Source of the DNA: Candidatus Sulfotelmatobacter sp.
GTDB lineage: Bacteria; Eisenbacteria; RBG-16-71-46
Assembly (NCBI GenBank): GCA_035498555.1
Contig: DATKAB010000046.1
Coordinates: 1-45,002, forward strand
DNA length: 45,002 nucleotides
Reading direction: 5' to 3'
Every line of letters starts with the position of its first letter. Position 1 is the first letter of the stretch. Positions 8,160 through 24,040 of the stretch are shown here, in pieces. Both the position numbers and the translations under genes were made by a program. The notes beneath the pieces were generated by a model that was given only the letters and a program-made list of their open reading frames with translations, was not told where the DNA came from and did not search any database.

Positions 8160-8246
8160 TGGTGCGGAAGGGGGGATTTGAACCCCCACACCCTTTCGGG
8201 CGCTAGAACCTGAATCTAGTGCGTCTGCCAGTTCCGCCACTTCCGC
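8160..8246 (-). tRNA. tRNA-Leu (anticodon CAG), CCA encoded
   Basis: Minus-strand cloverleaf. Acceptor GCGGAAG pairs with CTTCCGC, the anticodon stem CTAGA/TCTAG holds loop TTCAGGT (anticodon CAG, reads CUG), a long class II variable arm sits at CGCCCGAAAGGGTGT, and the T arm is GGGGG-TTCAAAT-CCCCC. The 3' end ACCA is genomic (8163-8160), so the CCA tail is encoded. The gene lies 60 bases ahead of smpB on the same strand and just downstream of a strong promoter, so it probably heads the smpB-amidase-gerM-murI-rph transcript. Confidence 0.98.
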
Positions 8247-10431: not shown

Positions 10432-11409
10432 TCAGCCGCGATTCTTCTTCCGCGCCAGCACGCGCTCGGCAGCCGCCACGATGTCCTTCGCGCGCAAGCC
10501 GAAGGCATCCATCAGCTCGGCGGGCTTGCCGGATTGGCCGAAGCGGTCGTGCACCGCGACCAGCTCCATCGGCACCGGCGTGTTCTGCACGACCGCCTCG
10601 GCCACCGCGCCGCCGAGCCCGCCGTTCACCTGATGCTCTTCGGCGGTCACGATCGCGCCGGTATCCCGAGCGCACTGCTCGATCGTCGCGCGATCGAGCG
10701 GCTTGACGGTGTGCAGGTTCACGACGCGCGCCTCGACGCCGCGCTCCAGCAGCTGCTCGCGGGCGCGAAGCGCCTCGTAGACCATGACGCCGCACGCGAT
10801 GATGCTGAGGTCCTTGCCGGACGCGAACACCTCGGCCTTGCCGAACGTAAAGGGGGTCTGCTCGGTGGTGACGAGCGGCACGTCCTCGCGGCCGAAGCGG
10901 ATGTAGACCGGCCCCGGCTCGTAGGCGGCCGCCATCGTCGCCTTGTACGACTCCCAGTAGTCGCAGGGCACGATCATCTTCATGTTCGGGATCGAGCGGA
11001 TGATGGAGATCTCCTCCATCGCCTGATGGGTCGCGCCGTCCGGGCCGACCGAAATGCCGCCGTGCGCGCCACCGATCTTCACGTTGAGGTTGGTGTAGGC
11101 GAGCGTCACGCGAATCTGGTCCGCGGCGCGGCACGAAGCGAACGCGCCGTAGGTGGACCAGAAGGGGATCTTGCCCATCGCCGCGAGGCCCGCGGCCACG
11201 CCGCACATGTTCTGCTCGGCGATCCCCACCTGAATGAATCGGTCGGGGAAGCGCTCGGCGAAGAAACTCACCATGGTGGATTCGGCGAGATCTCCCACCA
11301 GCACCACGATGCGAGGATCCTTCTCGCCCAGCGTCACCAGCGCGCGGCCGAAGCCTTCGCGCGTCTTCTTCATCTCGACTTTCTCGGGCAGCGTGATGGT
11401 GGCGGTCAT
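10432..11409 (-). CDS. Transketolase, C-terminal subunit
   Basis: Second half of a split transketolase (pyrimidine-binding plus C-terminal domains), 325 residues. Visible are GDLAESTM near 39, the catalytic glutamate in GIAEQNMCGVAAGLA near 64, and FWSTYGAFASCRAADQIR. IGGAHGGISVGPDGATHQAMEEI (~113-135) is the substrate/ThDP-facing loop. The C-terminal fold includes VNLHTVKPLD and EEHQVNGGLGGAVAE. With the N-terminal subunit it moves two-carbon ketol units in the non-oxidative pentose phosphate pathway. It lies 13 bases downstream of the N-subunit gene. The last residues are lysine-rich. The stop at 10432 is back to back with the convergent membrane-protein gene, with no terminator between them. 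Confidence 0.94.
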   Translation of the reverse strand: MTATITLPEKVEMKKTREGFGRALVTLGEKDPRIVVLVGDLAESTMVSFFAERFPDRFIQVGIAEQNMCGVAAGLAAMGKIPFWSTYGAFASCRAADQIRVTLAYTNLNVKIGGAHGGISVGPDGATHQAMEEISIIRSIPNMKMIVPCDYWESYKATMAAAYEPGPVYIRFGREDVPLVTTEQTPFTFGKAEVFASGKDLSIIACGVMVYEALRAREQLLERGVEARVVNLHTVKPLDRATIEQCARDTGAIVTAEEHQVNGGLGGAVAEAVVQNTPVPMELVAVHDRFGQSGKPAELMDAFGLRAKDIVAAAERVLARKKNRG

Positions 11410-19221: not shown

Positions 19222-19994
19222 GAGTCCGGCCGGCGCCGCTCGAGGGCGAGGCTCATCCGCACCGTCGGCGCGAGCACCGGGTGGCCGTCCACCTGGCTCG
19301 CGACGCGGAGCGCGCCGACCGTGGCCTCGATCCCCACACCTCCTCGCAGCGGCTGGTCGCGCAGCTCGGTCCACGCCGTGATGCCGGCGAGCGCGAGCGA
19401 CAGCCGTGCAGCGTGCGCCGCGGGCTCGACGATTCCCTGGCGGGGCGCCTCGCGCTCGAGCCCGAGCGCCACGCCGCCGGCCGCCCACTCGACCCCCGCC
19501 GTGAGCCCGCGCGGCAGCGGCGGACTCTCGCCGGCGAGGAACGCCTGCGGCGCGCTGGCCCAGATTCGCATGGGCCCGAGGCTCATCCAGCCGCCCATGC
19601 CGGTCTCGACGCCGACCGCGGGCAGCTCCACCGGCGATTCGTGATCCCGGCGCACGACCGCGCGCGCCGCGGCGCCCGCGACGCGGTCGGCGATTCCGAG
19701 CGCGAGGCCCGCGGCGTTCCAGCCCAGCGCGTCGTCGCCGGCGCTCGCGACTCCGGCCTCGGCCGCGACACCGCGGAAGGCGCCGCCCGCGATCAGCGAG
19801 CGCGCGGTCATGGCCAGCGGCCAGCGCGTGAGGAGCGTCGCCAGCGACGCGCCGGTGGCGCCATTCGGCAGCGCGCGCTCGAGCAGCGCTCCGGGGCCGA
19901 GCGTGGCGCGCGAAGTGGGAGCGGCGAACTCCTGCGCGATCGCGACCGCCGGCAGCGCCATGGCGAGCATCGCGAGCACCGAGGCCGTGGTCAC
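19218..19994 (-). CDS. Secreted envelope protein, weakly PorV/PorQ-like
   Basis: 258 residues from GTG 19994 (GTGA overlap with the LTD gene). A signal peptide ends near AIAQ (residue 21). The segment GVASAGDDALGWNAAGLALG (~80-99) recalls the 'ADDAxAxYWNPAGLA' hallmark of PorV/PorQ and related FadL-like barrels. Later stretches (WMSLGPMRIWASAP, GLTAGVEWAAGGVALGLERE, LRGGVGIEATVGALRVASQVDG) look like amphipathic barrel strands. PorV proteins act as outer-membrane partners for cargo with type IX C-terminal domains. The gene directly upstream encodes just such a protein, so a shuttle or anchor role is a reasonable but unproven inference. The hallmark lies further from the N-terminus than is usual in PorV. 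Confidence 0.62.
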   Translation of the reverse strand: MTTASVLAMLAMALPAVAIAQEFAAPTSRATLGPGALLERALPNGATGASLATLLTRWPLAMTARSLIAGGAFRGVAAEAGVASAGDDALGWNAAGLALGIADRVAGAAARAVVRRDHESPVELPAVGVETGMGGWMSLGPMRIWASAPQAFLAGESPPLPRGLTAGVEWAAGGVALGLEREAPRQGIVEPAAHAARLSLALAGITAWTELRDQPLRGGVGIEATVGALRVASQVDGHPVLAPTVRMSLALERRRPDS

Positions 19995-21649
19995 GGCGCC
20001 GGCGCCACGACCCGGAGCGCACGCGTCTCGGTGAGTCGCTCACCGCCGCTTTCGGCCAGCGCCTGGAGCGAGGCCCAGAAGAAGCCGGGCGGCGCGGCCC
20101 CGAGCGACAGGTCGCGCACGCCGCGCCCGGCGGTCGAGATCTCGGGGAGGAGCGTGGCGACGCGGCGACCGTTGAGATCGTACAGCGTGACGCTCACCCG
20201 GGCGCGCGGCCACGGCAGGGACCATTCGAGATGGAGCGAGCCGGTCGGGCCCACCCGCGCCGGCGAGAGCGCGAAATGGCCGGCGACCGGCGGCAACGCC
20301 CGCGGCGGCTGGAGCGGGCTGCCGCGCGGATCGAGTGAGGGCTGCCAGAGTCCGTCGCGGCGCTCGATCGGCACCCCGGCCGGAACTCCGGATGCGCGGT
20401 AGGGGACGCGATCGCTCACCACGTCGTCGGCCTCGCGCAGCGTCGCGATGTCGGCGATGCCGGCGTCGTCGTCGGTGTTGTTGAGCGCGGCCCAGGGGCT
20501 CACCCGCCAGACGCGATTCGGATCGAGCTCGGGGCGGGCACCGAGCAGCGCGAGGCGATCCTGCGCGAACACCGCCAGGCTGTCGGGCGCGAGCGGGCCC
20601 AATCCTTCGCTCGGCACGCCGCGCGTGCTGCCGCGGTCCGCGAGCGTGAAGGCGGCGGGATCCAGTGGCAGCGCGGATTGATTTCGAACTTCGACCCACT
20701 CCCCCTCGCCATCGGCGGGATGGAACTGAATCTCGGTGAGTGCCAGGGGGCCGGGACCGAATCGCGCCCGCAGCGAATCGCGGTCGTCGTCGGGATTGCC
20801 GTCGGCGACGACCGCCAGATCCACCCACAGACGCTGTTTCCCGGCCGGCAGCGCGGCAAGATCGAGCGCGAACCCGAGCGTGTCGCCGGGCGAGAGGCCA
20901 GGCGAGGCCCACGGCTCCTGACTCGTCGTGGCGGATCCGCCCGGCCCATCGAGCGGCTCGACGTCGAGCGTGATGGCAACGTCGCTGGTCGCAACCCAAT
21001 CGCGACCGCGATTGACGATTCGCCCGGTGAGCCGCGCGGAACCGCCGGCATCCGGGCGCTCGGGGTCGAGCGCCAGCGATCCGGGCAAGAGCGCGAGATC
21101 GCGGCGCGGCTGGTTCTCGCGCCCGGGCGAAGGCGCCGCCGCGCGGAAGTCGAGCGCGTTGCTGCCGAGATCCGCGTCGTCGGGCATGCGCGAAAGCGAC
21201 AGCCCGGCAGCCACGTCCGCAGCCGGTGCGCCGCAGGAATACTCGGGATAGGCGAGCGCGCCATAGCCCACGACCTCGCTCGCGCCGTCCGGCCACACCA
21301 TGCGCACGGCGTCGGGCCCGTTCTGCAGGTCGAGCACCACGAGCCGCTGCGGCGCGGGCGAAACGCGCGCCCCGCCGATCACGAAGCGGGCGCCGGCGGG
21401 AATCGAATCCTCACCGGTCCCGCTCCACCGCAGCGACCACCGATCCGGTCCCGCGCCGTCGCCAGCCTCGAGCCGTGCGCCGGCGAGCGACAGCGTGGCG
21501 GCGGTGGGGTTGAACAGCTCGACGAACTCGTTGCCGGTGTCGTCACCGATGGCGTCGTAGAACACCTCGGTGACGATCGCGTGTGCGGGCGGCACGCAGG
21601 TGGTCGCCGCCGCGAGAAACAGGCCCCACACGGGCGAGAGCTCTCCCAC
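19991..21649 (-). CDS. Surface protein with two lamin-tail domains and a FlgD-like C-terminal domain
   Basis: 552 residues from GTG 21649; GTG 21631 is equally likely because GGAGAG lies 9 bases upstream of it. The signal peptide ends near PPAHA (~24). LTD-1 (~25-170) shows VTEVFYDAIGDDTGNEFVELFNP, LSLAGARLEAGDG and FVIGG. A CARDB-like beta domain (~185-310) has GRIVNRGRDW and DTLGFALDLAALPAGKQRL. LTD-2 (~310-420) has LALTEIQFHPADGEGEWVEVRNQ and FTLADRGS. The C-terminus (~465-552) has VSVTLYDLNGRRVATLLPE, the FlgD/type IX-like domain linked to export and cell-surface attachment. It is the first gene of an operon with two barrel-like proteins. LTDs and CARDB are adhesion or scaffold modules; no enzyme site is visible. 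Confidence 0.8.
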   Translation of the reverse strand: MGELSPVWGLFLAAATTCVPPAHAIVTEVFYDAIGDDTGNEFVELFNPTAATLSLAGARLEAGDGAGPDRWSLRWSGTGEDSIPAGARFVIGGARVSPAPQRLVVLDLQNGPDAVRMVWPDGASEVVGYGALAYPEYSCGAPAADVAAGLSLSRMPDDADLGSNALDFRAAAPSPGRENQPRRDLALLPGSLALDPERPDAGGSARLTGRIVNRGRDWVATSDVAITLDVEPLDGPGGSATTSQEPWASPGLSPGDTLGFALDLAALPAGKQRLWVDLAVVADGNPDDDRDSLRARFGPGPLALTEIQFHPADGEGEWVEVRNQSALPLDPAAFTLADRGSTRGVPSEGLGPLAPDSLAVFAQDRLALLGARPELDPNRVWRVSPWAALNNTDDDAGIADIATLREADDVVSDRVPYRASGVPAGVPIERRDGLWQPSLDPRGSPLQPPRALPPVAGHFALSPARVGPTGSLHLEWSLPWPRARVSVTLYDLNGRRVATLLPEISTAGRGVRDLSLGAAPPGFFWASLQALAESGGERLTETRALRVVAPAP

Positions 21650-21738: not shown

Positions 21739-21884
21739 GGCGCTACGAGGGAAAGGTCCATCGGGAGGGCTCCGCGCCGAGCGGAAAGAGGACAGGACGT
21801 CCGGCGCTCAGCGCAGCGAGCGAGTCGGCGCCCGGATGGCACCGACGAGCCTACCCGACCAGGGGACCTTTCCCTCGAAGCGCC
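21739..21884. ncRNA. Long structured hairpin element, candidate small RNA or leader
   Basis: Within the 252-base gap 21650-21901, 21739-21759 pairs with 21864-21884 in 20 of 21 positions (single A-A mismatch), including a perfect 14-bp arm CGAGGGAAAGGTCC. After a small asymmetric loop (A21760 against 21859-21863), 21761-21772 pairs with 21847-21858 in 11 of 12 positions, one as G-U if read on the plus strand. An inner hairpin pairs 21801-21807 with 21828-21835, with one bulge. The whole folds into a single branched rod of ~146 nt. The wobble pair slightly favours plus-strand transcription. On the minus strand it would lie between the VWA gene and the LTD/barrel operon as a leader or terminator. 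No match to tmRNA, SRP RNA, RNase P or a riboswitch is recognised. Confidence 0.55.
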
Positions 21885-21901: not shown

Positions 21902-24040
21902 CTACGGCAGCCCTCTCCGCCTGCGCCAGCCCCATTCGACGCCGAGCGCGCCGACGATCGCGGCGAAGGTCCACGGCGATTCCCACAGCCGTCGCGACTG
22001 ACCCCGCCCGCGCGCCAGCTCGCGCGTCGGCATGTCGCGCGCCCAGCGCTCGATTCCTCCCGCCTCGGTCGAGCGCCCGCCGCTCGCCGCGGCGAGCTGC
22101 GCGAGCCCCACGCTGTCGGCGGCGGTTCGCGCCTCCTCGAGGCTCCAGCGATCCACCGCGACCTCGCTCGTGCCGCGGCCCAGCTCGTGGCCACCCTGCT
22201 CGGCGCGCACCGCGATCCGATAGCGGCCGGGCGGCAGATCGTCCAGCTCCGCCTCGTAGCTGCCGGCATCGCGCGCGGTGAAGGTCACGCTGCGCGCGCC
22301 TCCGTTCTCGGCGCGAACCTCGCCGCTCACCGTGGCGCCGGCCAACGGGTGGAGCGCCGCGTCCTGCACCGTGGCCAACCAGCGCACGGGTTCGCCACTG
22401 GAAGCCAGCCAGCGGTCCGGCCGCACCCGCACCGGCTCGCCCTGCACCGGCTCGGCGAGCCAGCGCACCAGGCGCCGCCACAACGCGCGGCCGCGTTCAT
22501 CGCCGTTCTCGTCCTGTGCGGCCAGCGACCAGCGCCACAGCCCGACGCCGTTCACCATCAGCACCGGGCCGCGCCCGATCCGGCGCGTGAACAGCAGCGG
22601 CGGCCCGGAGCCGGGAGTCGCAAGCAGCACGCGATCGCCGGCGCCGGGCTGGATCGGCGCCACGTCGGTGAGCGGGGCCGCCGACCGCCACGCCGCGTCG
22701 CCGCGGGCGGGATCCGGGTCCCACGCCAGCAGCTCGCGGCCTTCGGGGGTGGGCACCGGGGTTCCCGGCCGGCCGGCGAGCGCGCCCTCGAGGTCGACGT
22801 GGAGCTGCGCCCCGAGCGCACCCGCCCGATGGCGCGAAAGACCGGGAGGCGCGCCGCCCAGCACCAGCAGACCGCCGCCCGAGCGGGCGAAGTCGAGCAG
22901 CGCGCGATCCATCACGTCGCCGAGATCGGTGCCGGTGAGCGCGTCCAGCACGACCACCGAGATGCCGCGCAGATCTTCCGGCGAAGGAGCGCCACGCCGG
23001 CGGCGCGTTTCGATCGCACGCCAGCCCTCGCGTTCGCGTGACAGGGTGGTGAGCGCCAGGCTCGAATCGCCCGCCAGCGAACGGCGCAGGAACGAGAGGT
23101 CCCAGTTGAGGCTCCCGGTCAGCACCAGCACGCCGAGCTTGCCGGGCGCCACGTCCACCGCCACCTGTCGCGCGTTGTTGGCGAAGTCCATTTCCCCCGC
23201 AATCGAATCCACCCGCGCGGTCCACACCGCGAGCCCGGCCCGCGGCGGCGTCACGGTGAGCTCGGCGGTGGCCTCGGCGCCCGGTCCCGGCGCGGGCACC
23301 ACCGCGCGCGCGAGCACTCGCCCGCCGTCGAGCAGCGAGACCGGCAGCGGCAGCCCGCGCGGCTCGCCCGACGTGACGTGGACCCGGATCGGCGTGGGCT
23401 CGCCAACCCGCGCGATGCTCGAGCCCTCGACCTCCGTGATCACTCGATCGGGACCGGATCCGCCCACGATCACGGCGTGCACGGGTACGCCCAGCTCGCG
23501 CGCGGCCGTCAGGGGATCGTCGCCGCGATTGCTCACCCCGTCACTCACCACCACCACCGCGCTCGCGCCTTCGCCCGACGGCGAGCGCCCGAGCTCGTTG
23601 AGCGCCGTGCCGAGCCCGGTGCCGGAGCCGCTGCCGACGCCGGTCGAGTCGAGTGCCAGGCGGCTCGCGAAATCGAGCACCTCGACGCGGGCGCGACCAC
23701 GCCAGGCGCTCTTGAGATCAGCGACCGCCCGCGCGGCGAGCGCCGCGCGCGATGGCCCGCCCGCGGCGGCGGGCAGGTTCATGCTGCGCGAACGATCGAG
23801 CAGCACCACGACCCGCGCCGACTCCCCTCCCACGCGCTCCAGCACCGGTTGAGCCAGCAGCCAGATCAACGCCAGAAGCGCGAAGGCGCGAAGCAGCGGC
23901 AGCAATCGCTTGGCCAGCGCCGGCAGCGGCGGAATCGCGATGCGGTAGGCCCACAGCGCGAGCGCGCCGAGCGCCACGCTCAGCAGGGTCAGCCAGATCC
24001 ACGGAGCGTTGGGTGCGAGATGGAGAGACAGGTCGGACAT
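21902..24040 (-). CDS. VWA-domain membrane protein with glutamine-amidotransferase-like region
   Basis: 712 residues from ATG 24040. Two N-terminal helices (~14-34, ~46-65) precede a von Willebrand A domain (~72-200) with MIDAS motif DRSRSM and a second metal-site segment VVVVSDGVSNRGDD. Beta-sandwich segments and a class-I-glutamine-amidotransferase-like fold follow (GISVVVLDALTG, FARSGGGLLVLGG ~390-400, GRGPVLMVNGVGLWRW) without the catalytic Cys nucleophile. A final Ig-like region shows LPPGRYRIAVRAEQGG, and the C-terminus has one helix (~690-705) and a basic tail. This is the architecture of BatA-like proteins normally beside MoxR ATPase and DUF58 genes; neither is near it here. The function is unknown, probably envelope stress or assembly. 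A 72-base gap separates it from the upstream DUF4388 gene. Confidence 0.82.
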   Translation of the reverse strand: MSDLSLHLAPNAPWIWLTLLSVALGALALWAYRIAIPPLPALAKRLLPLLRAFALLALIWLLAQPVLERVGGESARVVVLLDRSRSMNLPAAAGGPSRAALAARAVADLKSAWRGRARVEVLDFASRLALDSTGVGSGSGTGLGTALNELGRSPSGEGASAVVVVSDGVSNRGDDPLTAARELGVPVHAVIVGGSGPDRVITEVEGSSIARVGEPTPIRVHVTSGEPRGLPLPVSLLDGGRVLARAVVPAPGPGAEATAELTVTPPRAGLAVWTARVDSIAGEMDFANNARQVAVDVAPGKLGVLVLTGSLNWDLSFLRRSLAGDSSLALTTLSREREGWRAIETRRRRGAPSPEDLRGISVVVLDALTGTDLGDVMDRALLDFARSGGGLLVLGGAPPGLSRHRAGALGAQLHVDLEGALAGRPGTPVPTPEGRELLAWDPDPARGDAAWRSAAPLTDVAPIQPGAGDRVLLATPGSGPPLLFTRRIGRGPVLMVNGVGLWRWSLAAQDENGDERGRALWRRLVRWLAEPVQGEPVRVRPDRWLASSGEPVRWLATVQDAALHPLAGATVSGEVRAENGGARSVTFTARDAGSYEAELDDLPPGRYRIAVRAEQGGHELGRGTSEVAVDRWSLEEARTAADSVGLAQLAAASGGRSTEAGGIERWARDMPTRELARGRGQSRRLWESPWTFAAIVGALGVEWGWRRRRGLP

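Follow-up and report, generated by a model that had tools for sequence, protein, structure and literature searches.

What is the 146-nt structured element that lies between two genes of an uncultured bacterium, and how did it come to be there? The window, that is, the whole 45,002-nt stretch of Candidatus Sulfotelmatobacter sp. DNA that was analysed, carries the element at 21739-21884, as supported by its fold and by the match of a covariance model (CM R1). The strand with the GGA loops described below is the plus strand, which is antisense to both flanking genes. The upstream neighbour (21902-24040, minus strand) is an open reading frame for a membrane protein ending in ...WRRRRGLP, and the same C-terminus precedes the downstream neighbour in relatives. 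This downstream neighbour (19991-21649, minus strand) encodes a lamin-tail-domain (LTD) protein, recognised by Pfam PF00932 (E 6e-10) and by synteny in relatives. The element lies 17 bases past the stop of the membrane protein gene and about 90 bases ahead of the LTD gene start.

The outer arms (21739-21759, whose sequence is locus-specific, and 21864-21884) are 21 bases long and form 20 Watson-Crick pairs, exactly as an earlier note on this DNA had counted. Inside them, TCGGGAGGGCTC (21761-21772) pairs with GAGCCTACCCGA (21847-21858) in the MFE structure, and the 11 pairs of this inner helix, one of them G-U on the plus strand, agree with the 11 of 12 reported earlier. The note had placed a single nested hairpin within this helix, whereas the MFE structure has two. 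Hairpin 1 (21779-21809) has the apex GGAC-AGGAC-GTCC at 21790-21802 with an A-GGA-C loop of a class conserved in the family, and hairpin 2 (21824-21846) has the apex GCC-CGGAT-GGC at 21830-21840 with a C-GGA-T loop. The plus-strand fold is thus a three-way junction, composed of a stem and two hairpins. Its folding energy was -92.3 kcal/mol (z -7.4), that of the minus strand was -101.4 kcal/mol (z -9.1), and no shuffle matched either, which bears out the view that chance pairing was unlikely. The impression that the element belongs to no known RNA family also held, as a 221-base search of Rfam returned no family at gathering score for the window element, the best sub-threshold match having an E-value of 0.37.

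When the same genome was searched by DNA similarity, one clear second copy was found, in frame within a dnaE-like gene, with a core 78% identical to that of the window element and arms that were quite unlike the window arms in sequence, yet still paired. Because DNA similarity alone gave only this copy, the family became visible only through a structure model. CM R1 was built from nine aligned copies, in which both GGA loops fell in register, and it matched the window at 21756-21861 on the plus strand (54.1 bits, E 1.1e-7; the window copy is among the nine model sequences). At E-values up to 0.01, which are rough for R1, at least 118 copies were detected in 16 of the 20 genomes of the window's family within Candidatus Eisenbacteria, these copy numbers being lower bounds, also because the number of candidates scored was capped. 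The earlier note had suggested looking for further copies in the host genome, and at least five were found there. Zero copies were detected by CM R1 in 27 genomes from other families of the class; the genomes analysed are MAGs, so that absence calls are soft. When 84,980 genomes were scanned for a sequence pattern, the 20 stretches that matched all came from Candidatus Eisenbacteria. The pattern GCCA(N)GGATGGCGA was also tried and rejected, since it was enriched over the reversed control but many of its matches were coding (AILA-type). Several copies lie at contig ends (L148, L150, L153, L154), where short-read assemblies break, and the copy number is therefore underestimated.

Nearly every copy folds into the same three-way junction of a long outer stem and two hairpins, with GGA present in 179 of 196 predicted hairpin loops in the form A(N)GGA. 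In an alignment of 99 distinct rows, the covariation score was 0.455, compared with 0.142 for shuffled alignments and 0.06-0.08 for slid partners, and the compensatory changes that the earlier note had named as a check were abundant, with 717 two-sided cells; this alignment was fitted to the structure, which inflates percentages more than pair-type contrasts. The C...G pair closing the hairpin 2 loop was unvarying (99/99 rows). Conservation in a set of 57 divergent representatives was 98-100% for the Gs of the loops, versus a mean of 61% in paired columns, and the two GGAs had a median spacing of 37 nt (range 34-43 nt). In the 307 kb of fetched loci, almost all inverted repeats with arms of at least 18 bases coincided with element copies, and shuffled sequence gave one.

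To which strand does this fold belong? On the GGA strand, arm mismatches outside the model region comprised 54 G-U and 22 A-C (p 3e-4), and 72 and 22 when five core bases were added; per element, 32 leaned to G-U and nine to A-C. The mismatches were scored symmetrically on DNA, and the copies share ancestry, which makes these p-values optimistic. The excess of G-U over A-C indicates that selection acts on the GGA strand in a folded, single-stranded form. Such a strand-specific signal is equally expected from RNA or single-stranded DNA, and transcription-linked deamination could be an extra contributor to the G-U excess. When element orientation was set against GC skew, the skew was too weak to show a lagging-strand bias.

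The core and the arms evolve very differently. Within a genome, the core comprises about 87 bases and consists of a short foot that bears both A(N)GGA-loop hairpins, and cores are 97-100% identical among many copies at different loci of one genome. In contrast, the outer stem of 20-45 bp differs in sequence from copy to copy while its pairing is kept: arms beside near-identical cores are mostly 55-86% identical between copies, whereas one arm and the reverse complement of the other have a mean identity of 93%. Between-copy identity was about 0.57 at 12-27 nt from the core and reached background (0.3) past about 28-35 nt, the same point at which within-copy complementarity ends. As arm identity fades gradually and reaches background only where complementarity ends, the arms are homologous, fast-evolving parts of the element. 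Two other origins of the arms were considered. Pre-existing inverted repeats used as targets were ruled out, since long inverted repeats without an element are almost absent; for fresh inverted copies of target DNA no sharp rule emerged, arm identity falling gradually to about 0.57. At one orthologous site in the genomes of two close species (G017, L169; G015, L189), the flanks were about 93% alike, the arms differed and were still paired, and the core was inverted. An empty-site comparison between these two genomes covered the dnaE-like site together with a paired locus; the linkers there were too different to assign the origin of the arms, and 130 kb of G015 contigs yielded no better pair. 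Near-constant cores within hypervariable yet complementary arms are unusual and call for explanation; concerted evolution or recent spread of the core, with a structure-only constraint on the arms, would fit the pattern. Separately, the window arm sequence CGCTTCGAGGGAAAGG(T/C)CCCCT recurs once in the genome without a core (G000:C81:52693-52714, 21/22 identical, E about 0.007).

With respect to genomic placement, most copies sit at the 3' ends of genes, in either orientation. For the 74 copies with both neighbours called by a simple codon-based gene caller, 43 contexts were tandem, 25 convergent and six divergent, compared with 245, 44 and 47 in background 20 kb stretches (p 8e-5); copies are enriched between convergent genes and depleted between divergent ones. 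In tandem contexts, 19 were sense and 24 antisense, which is random orientation. Eight close element pairs, with starts about 175-240 nt apart, were all head to head with their 5' ends facing, and these pairs lie mostly between convergent genes (L148, L150, L158, L180, L181, L117, L173, L111). About 15 copies lie within called genes. The dnaE-like polymerase gene carries in-frame elements at two linkers, in several genomes and both orientations, and these linkers are empty in other relatives, as in 'ARRRGIEIDVDRLPDPDP' and 'WDATLEDGAVRVGL'. This gene (L238-L254) receives elements in several genera, and may be a tolerated or a preferred target. At the LTD junction, the gene order is conserved in relatives. 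The gap measures about 100 nt in the several relatives where it is empty; in G006 and G014 it is about 250-300 nt long and contains an element of like shape and very different sequence. No clean target-site duplication was seen in the close species pair aligned, which offered few informative sites, and no fixed target motif was found.

The dispersal of the copies, the orthologous sites both filled and empty and the in-frame copies indicate a mobile element of REP/RPE-like kind, and the mobile inverted-repeat element that the earlier note had listed among its options is thereby supported. That the window element belongs to a mobile repeat family is, in our judgement, nearly certain. If the elements were instead stand-alone small RNA genes at fixed loci, strong covariation and strand asymmetry would be expected, and five element loci of G015 are indeed common to G017; this account is contradicted by the insertion pattern, with sites filled and empty or occupied in opposite orientations, copies in frame within coding sequence and near-identical cores at unrelated loci, which makes it very improbable. 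The new small RNA proposed in the earlier note may still apply in the sense of a transcribed function, given the abundant compensatory changes and the folding pressure on the plus strand, although single-stranded DNA would leave the same signal. The position upstream of the LTD gene had suggested a cis-regulatory leader of the LTD/barrel operon. Against this, the GGA strand in the window is antisense to both neighbours, most relatives have no element at the junction, the orientation is sense in G006 and G014, and elsewhere the element lies beside other genes in random orientation, so that we give the leader almost no credence.

Convergent genes might use the elements as bidirectional terminators or to stabilise their 3' ends, and the enrichment between convergent genes and depletion between divergent ones speak for such a use. 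However, a T tract is absent, intragenic copies exist, and termination needs neither a three-way junction nor conserved loops nor a strand preference, which leaves this function improbable. We regard the window element as a copy of a new non-autonomous REP/RPE-like family of mobile palindromes in one family of Candidatus Eisenbacteria, and consider it reasonably probable that this explanation holds as a whole. The GGA single strand, once folded, would be recognised and moved, most likely by a vertically inherited Y1 (HUH) transposase, and copies would persist where a palindrome of 150-200 bases does little harm, at gene 3' ends and in protein linkers.

The family was previously unlisted and has an unusual architecture for its kind. 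REP-type repeats are common, and it is still debated what makes them and what they are for; the systems studied are mostly proteobacterial. Like REP/BIME/REPIN repeats with their RAYTs, the elements are short dispersed palindromes, mostly extragenic at gene 3' ends, with close copies in opposite orientation and a single-copy Y1 transposase in the genome. REPs sit at unidirectional and convergent gene ends, and intragenic REPs are often in replication or repair genes (PMC3733652). In contrast to the REP hairpin of 20-40 bp, the element is a three-way junction of about 140-200 nt, and the REP foot tag GTAG (or GGAG) was not found in it, the feet being copy-specific and the arms locus-specific; GNAG often precedes the short apical hairpin 1 only, not the feet. 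Rickettsia palindromic elements (RPEs), which are palindromes of 105-146 bp (PMC2229807, PMC3733652), are likewise found in intergenic DNA as well as inserted in frame in protein genes. RPEs, as described, belong to an unrelated taxon and carry a CGTC tag together with terminal repeats; their descriptions mention neither copy-specific arms nor paired GGA-loop hairpins. Unlike a MITE, the element lacks terminal inverted repeats of common sequence, its arms being about 57% identical beside near-identical cores.

A candidate mover was found in the same genomes. A Y1 (IS200/IS605-type) transposase, which resembles TnpA proteins of known structure, is encoded in 19 of the 20 family genomes, usually in single copy and with homologous neighbouring genes in the 16 genomes compared; the search of 27 other-family genomes gave three weak, unrelated matches. 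One example of the gene lies at G000:C24:23562-23900. From this distribution, the gene appears to be inherited vertically across the family. It lies in conserved synteny family-wide (L226-L237, L258-L263), and apparently is no longer a mobile IS. Its NCBIfam scores were 72-78 for the IS200 model (cut-off 55) and 38.8-43.2 bits for REP_Tyr_transpos (cut-off 80), so that it scores as an IS200 TnpA and falls below the RAYT cut-off. In RAYT-REP pairs the repeats flank the transposase gene, whereas here no element was found within 1.5 kb at 12 transposase loci (best R1 score 14.7 bits). A vertically inherited Y1 beside structured repeats would be RAYT-like in logic, not a RAYT by membership as defined (PMC2817692). 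Four family genomes have the transposase and no detected copy, G008 bears elements and no transposase was found in it, and the co-occurrence of the two amounts to one clade versus the rest, not to many independent events. Movement of the elements by this transposase is thus a serious candidate, for which we put the case slightly short of even.

The two loops also point to a possible protein partner. Were the GGA strand transcribed, a CsrA dimer could bind at both of its loops, which are 37 nt apart, and the copies might together act as a dispersed CsrA decoy or mark transcripts; this reading is compatible with mobility, and differs in that RNA binding would be what maintains the loops. The loop form C-A(N)GGA(U)-G agrees with RUACARGGAUGU, the consensus obtained for CsrA by SELEX, and an exact ACAGGGAUGU occurs in the copy within the dnaE-like gene. 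The conservation of the loop Gs over the paired columns also favours this reading. The apical stems are short and interrupted by an internal loop. CsrA bridges two sites over a range of 10-63 nt (PMC7652899), and the element carries A(N)GGA in hairpin loops with at least two sites spaced within that range. A csrA gene with an HREE motif is present in the window's genome, and csrA in 18 of the 20 family genomes. The Rfam RNA TwoAYGGAY (RF01731), predicted to bind CsrA (PMC4333381), is alike in its two hairpins with GGA-type loops and in the tandem G-A pairs of some copies, but it is a single-locus RNA whereas the element is multi-copy and mobile, and its covariance model gave no match in four loci even at E up to 1. 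CsrB/RsmZ small RNAs share repeated ANGGA hairpin loops; the element differs in having two sites per copy, many copies, a long closing stem and no known promoter or terminator.

Against CsrA binding, the elements are oriented at random with respect to host transcripts, CsrA does not require an outer stem of 35 bp, and csrA was found in 14 of the 16 element-bearing genomes, without a match in G010 (96% complete) and G005, and also in 16 of the 27 element-free genomes of the class. Given these two genomes and the random orientation, we treat CsrA binding as a rival or an addition to the mobile palindrome, not as a conclusion; binding by the two putative loop sites is plausible, although we lean against it. 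A fuller scheme would combine a mobile palindrome bearing a paired putative CsrA module, a domesticated IS200-type transposase as mover and family-wide transcripts that serve as a dispersed CsrA decoy, with arms that turn over very fast and a strand-specific process that keeps them complementary; we consider it unlikely as a whole.

The family offers an independent REP-type case in an uncultured phylum, with a defined structure, natural empty sites and a candidate single-copy transposase that is not a RAYT; its hosts are uncultured soil and groundwater bacteria of one family. Its loops moreover imply one particular protein as a partner, so that mover and function alike are open to test. The window's genome has two csrA genes (G000:C95:2259-2417 and C203:9288-9446), compared with one in most relatives. 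Within the window, a second inverted repeat with 19-base arms and a 32-base spacer lies at 10535-10604 and was not matched by CM R1, and a tRNA gene lies on the minus strand at 8163-8246 (Rfam RF00005, 54.7 bits).
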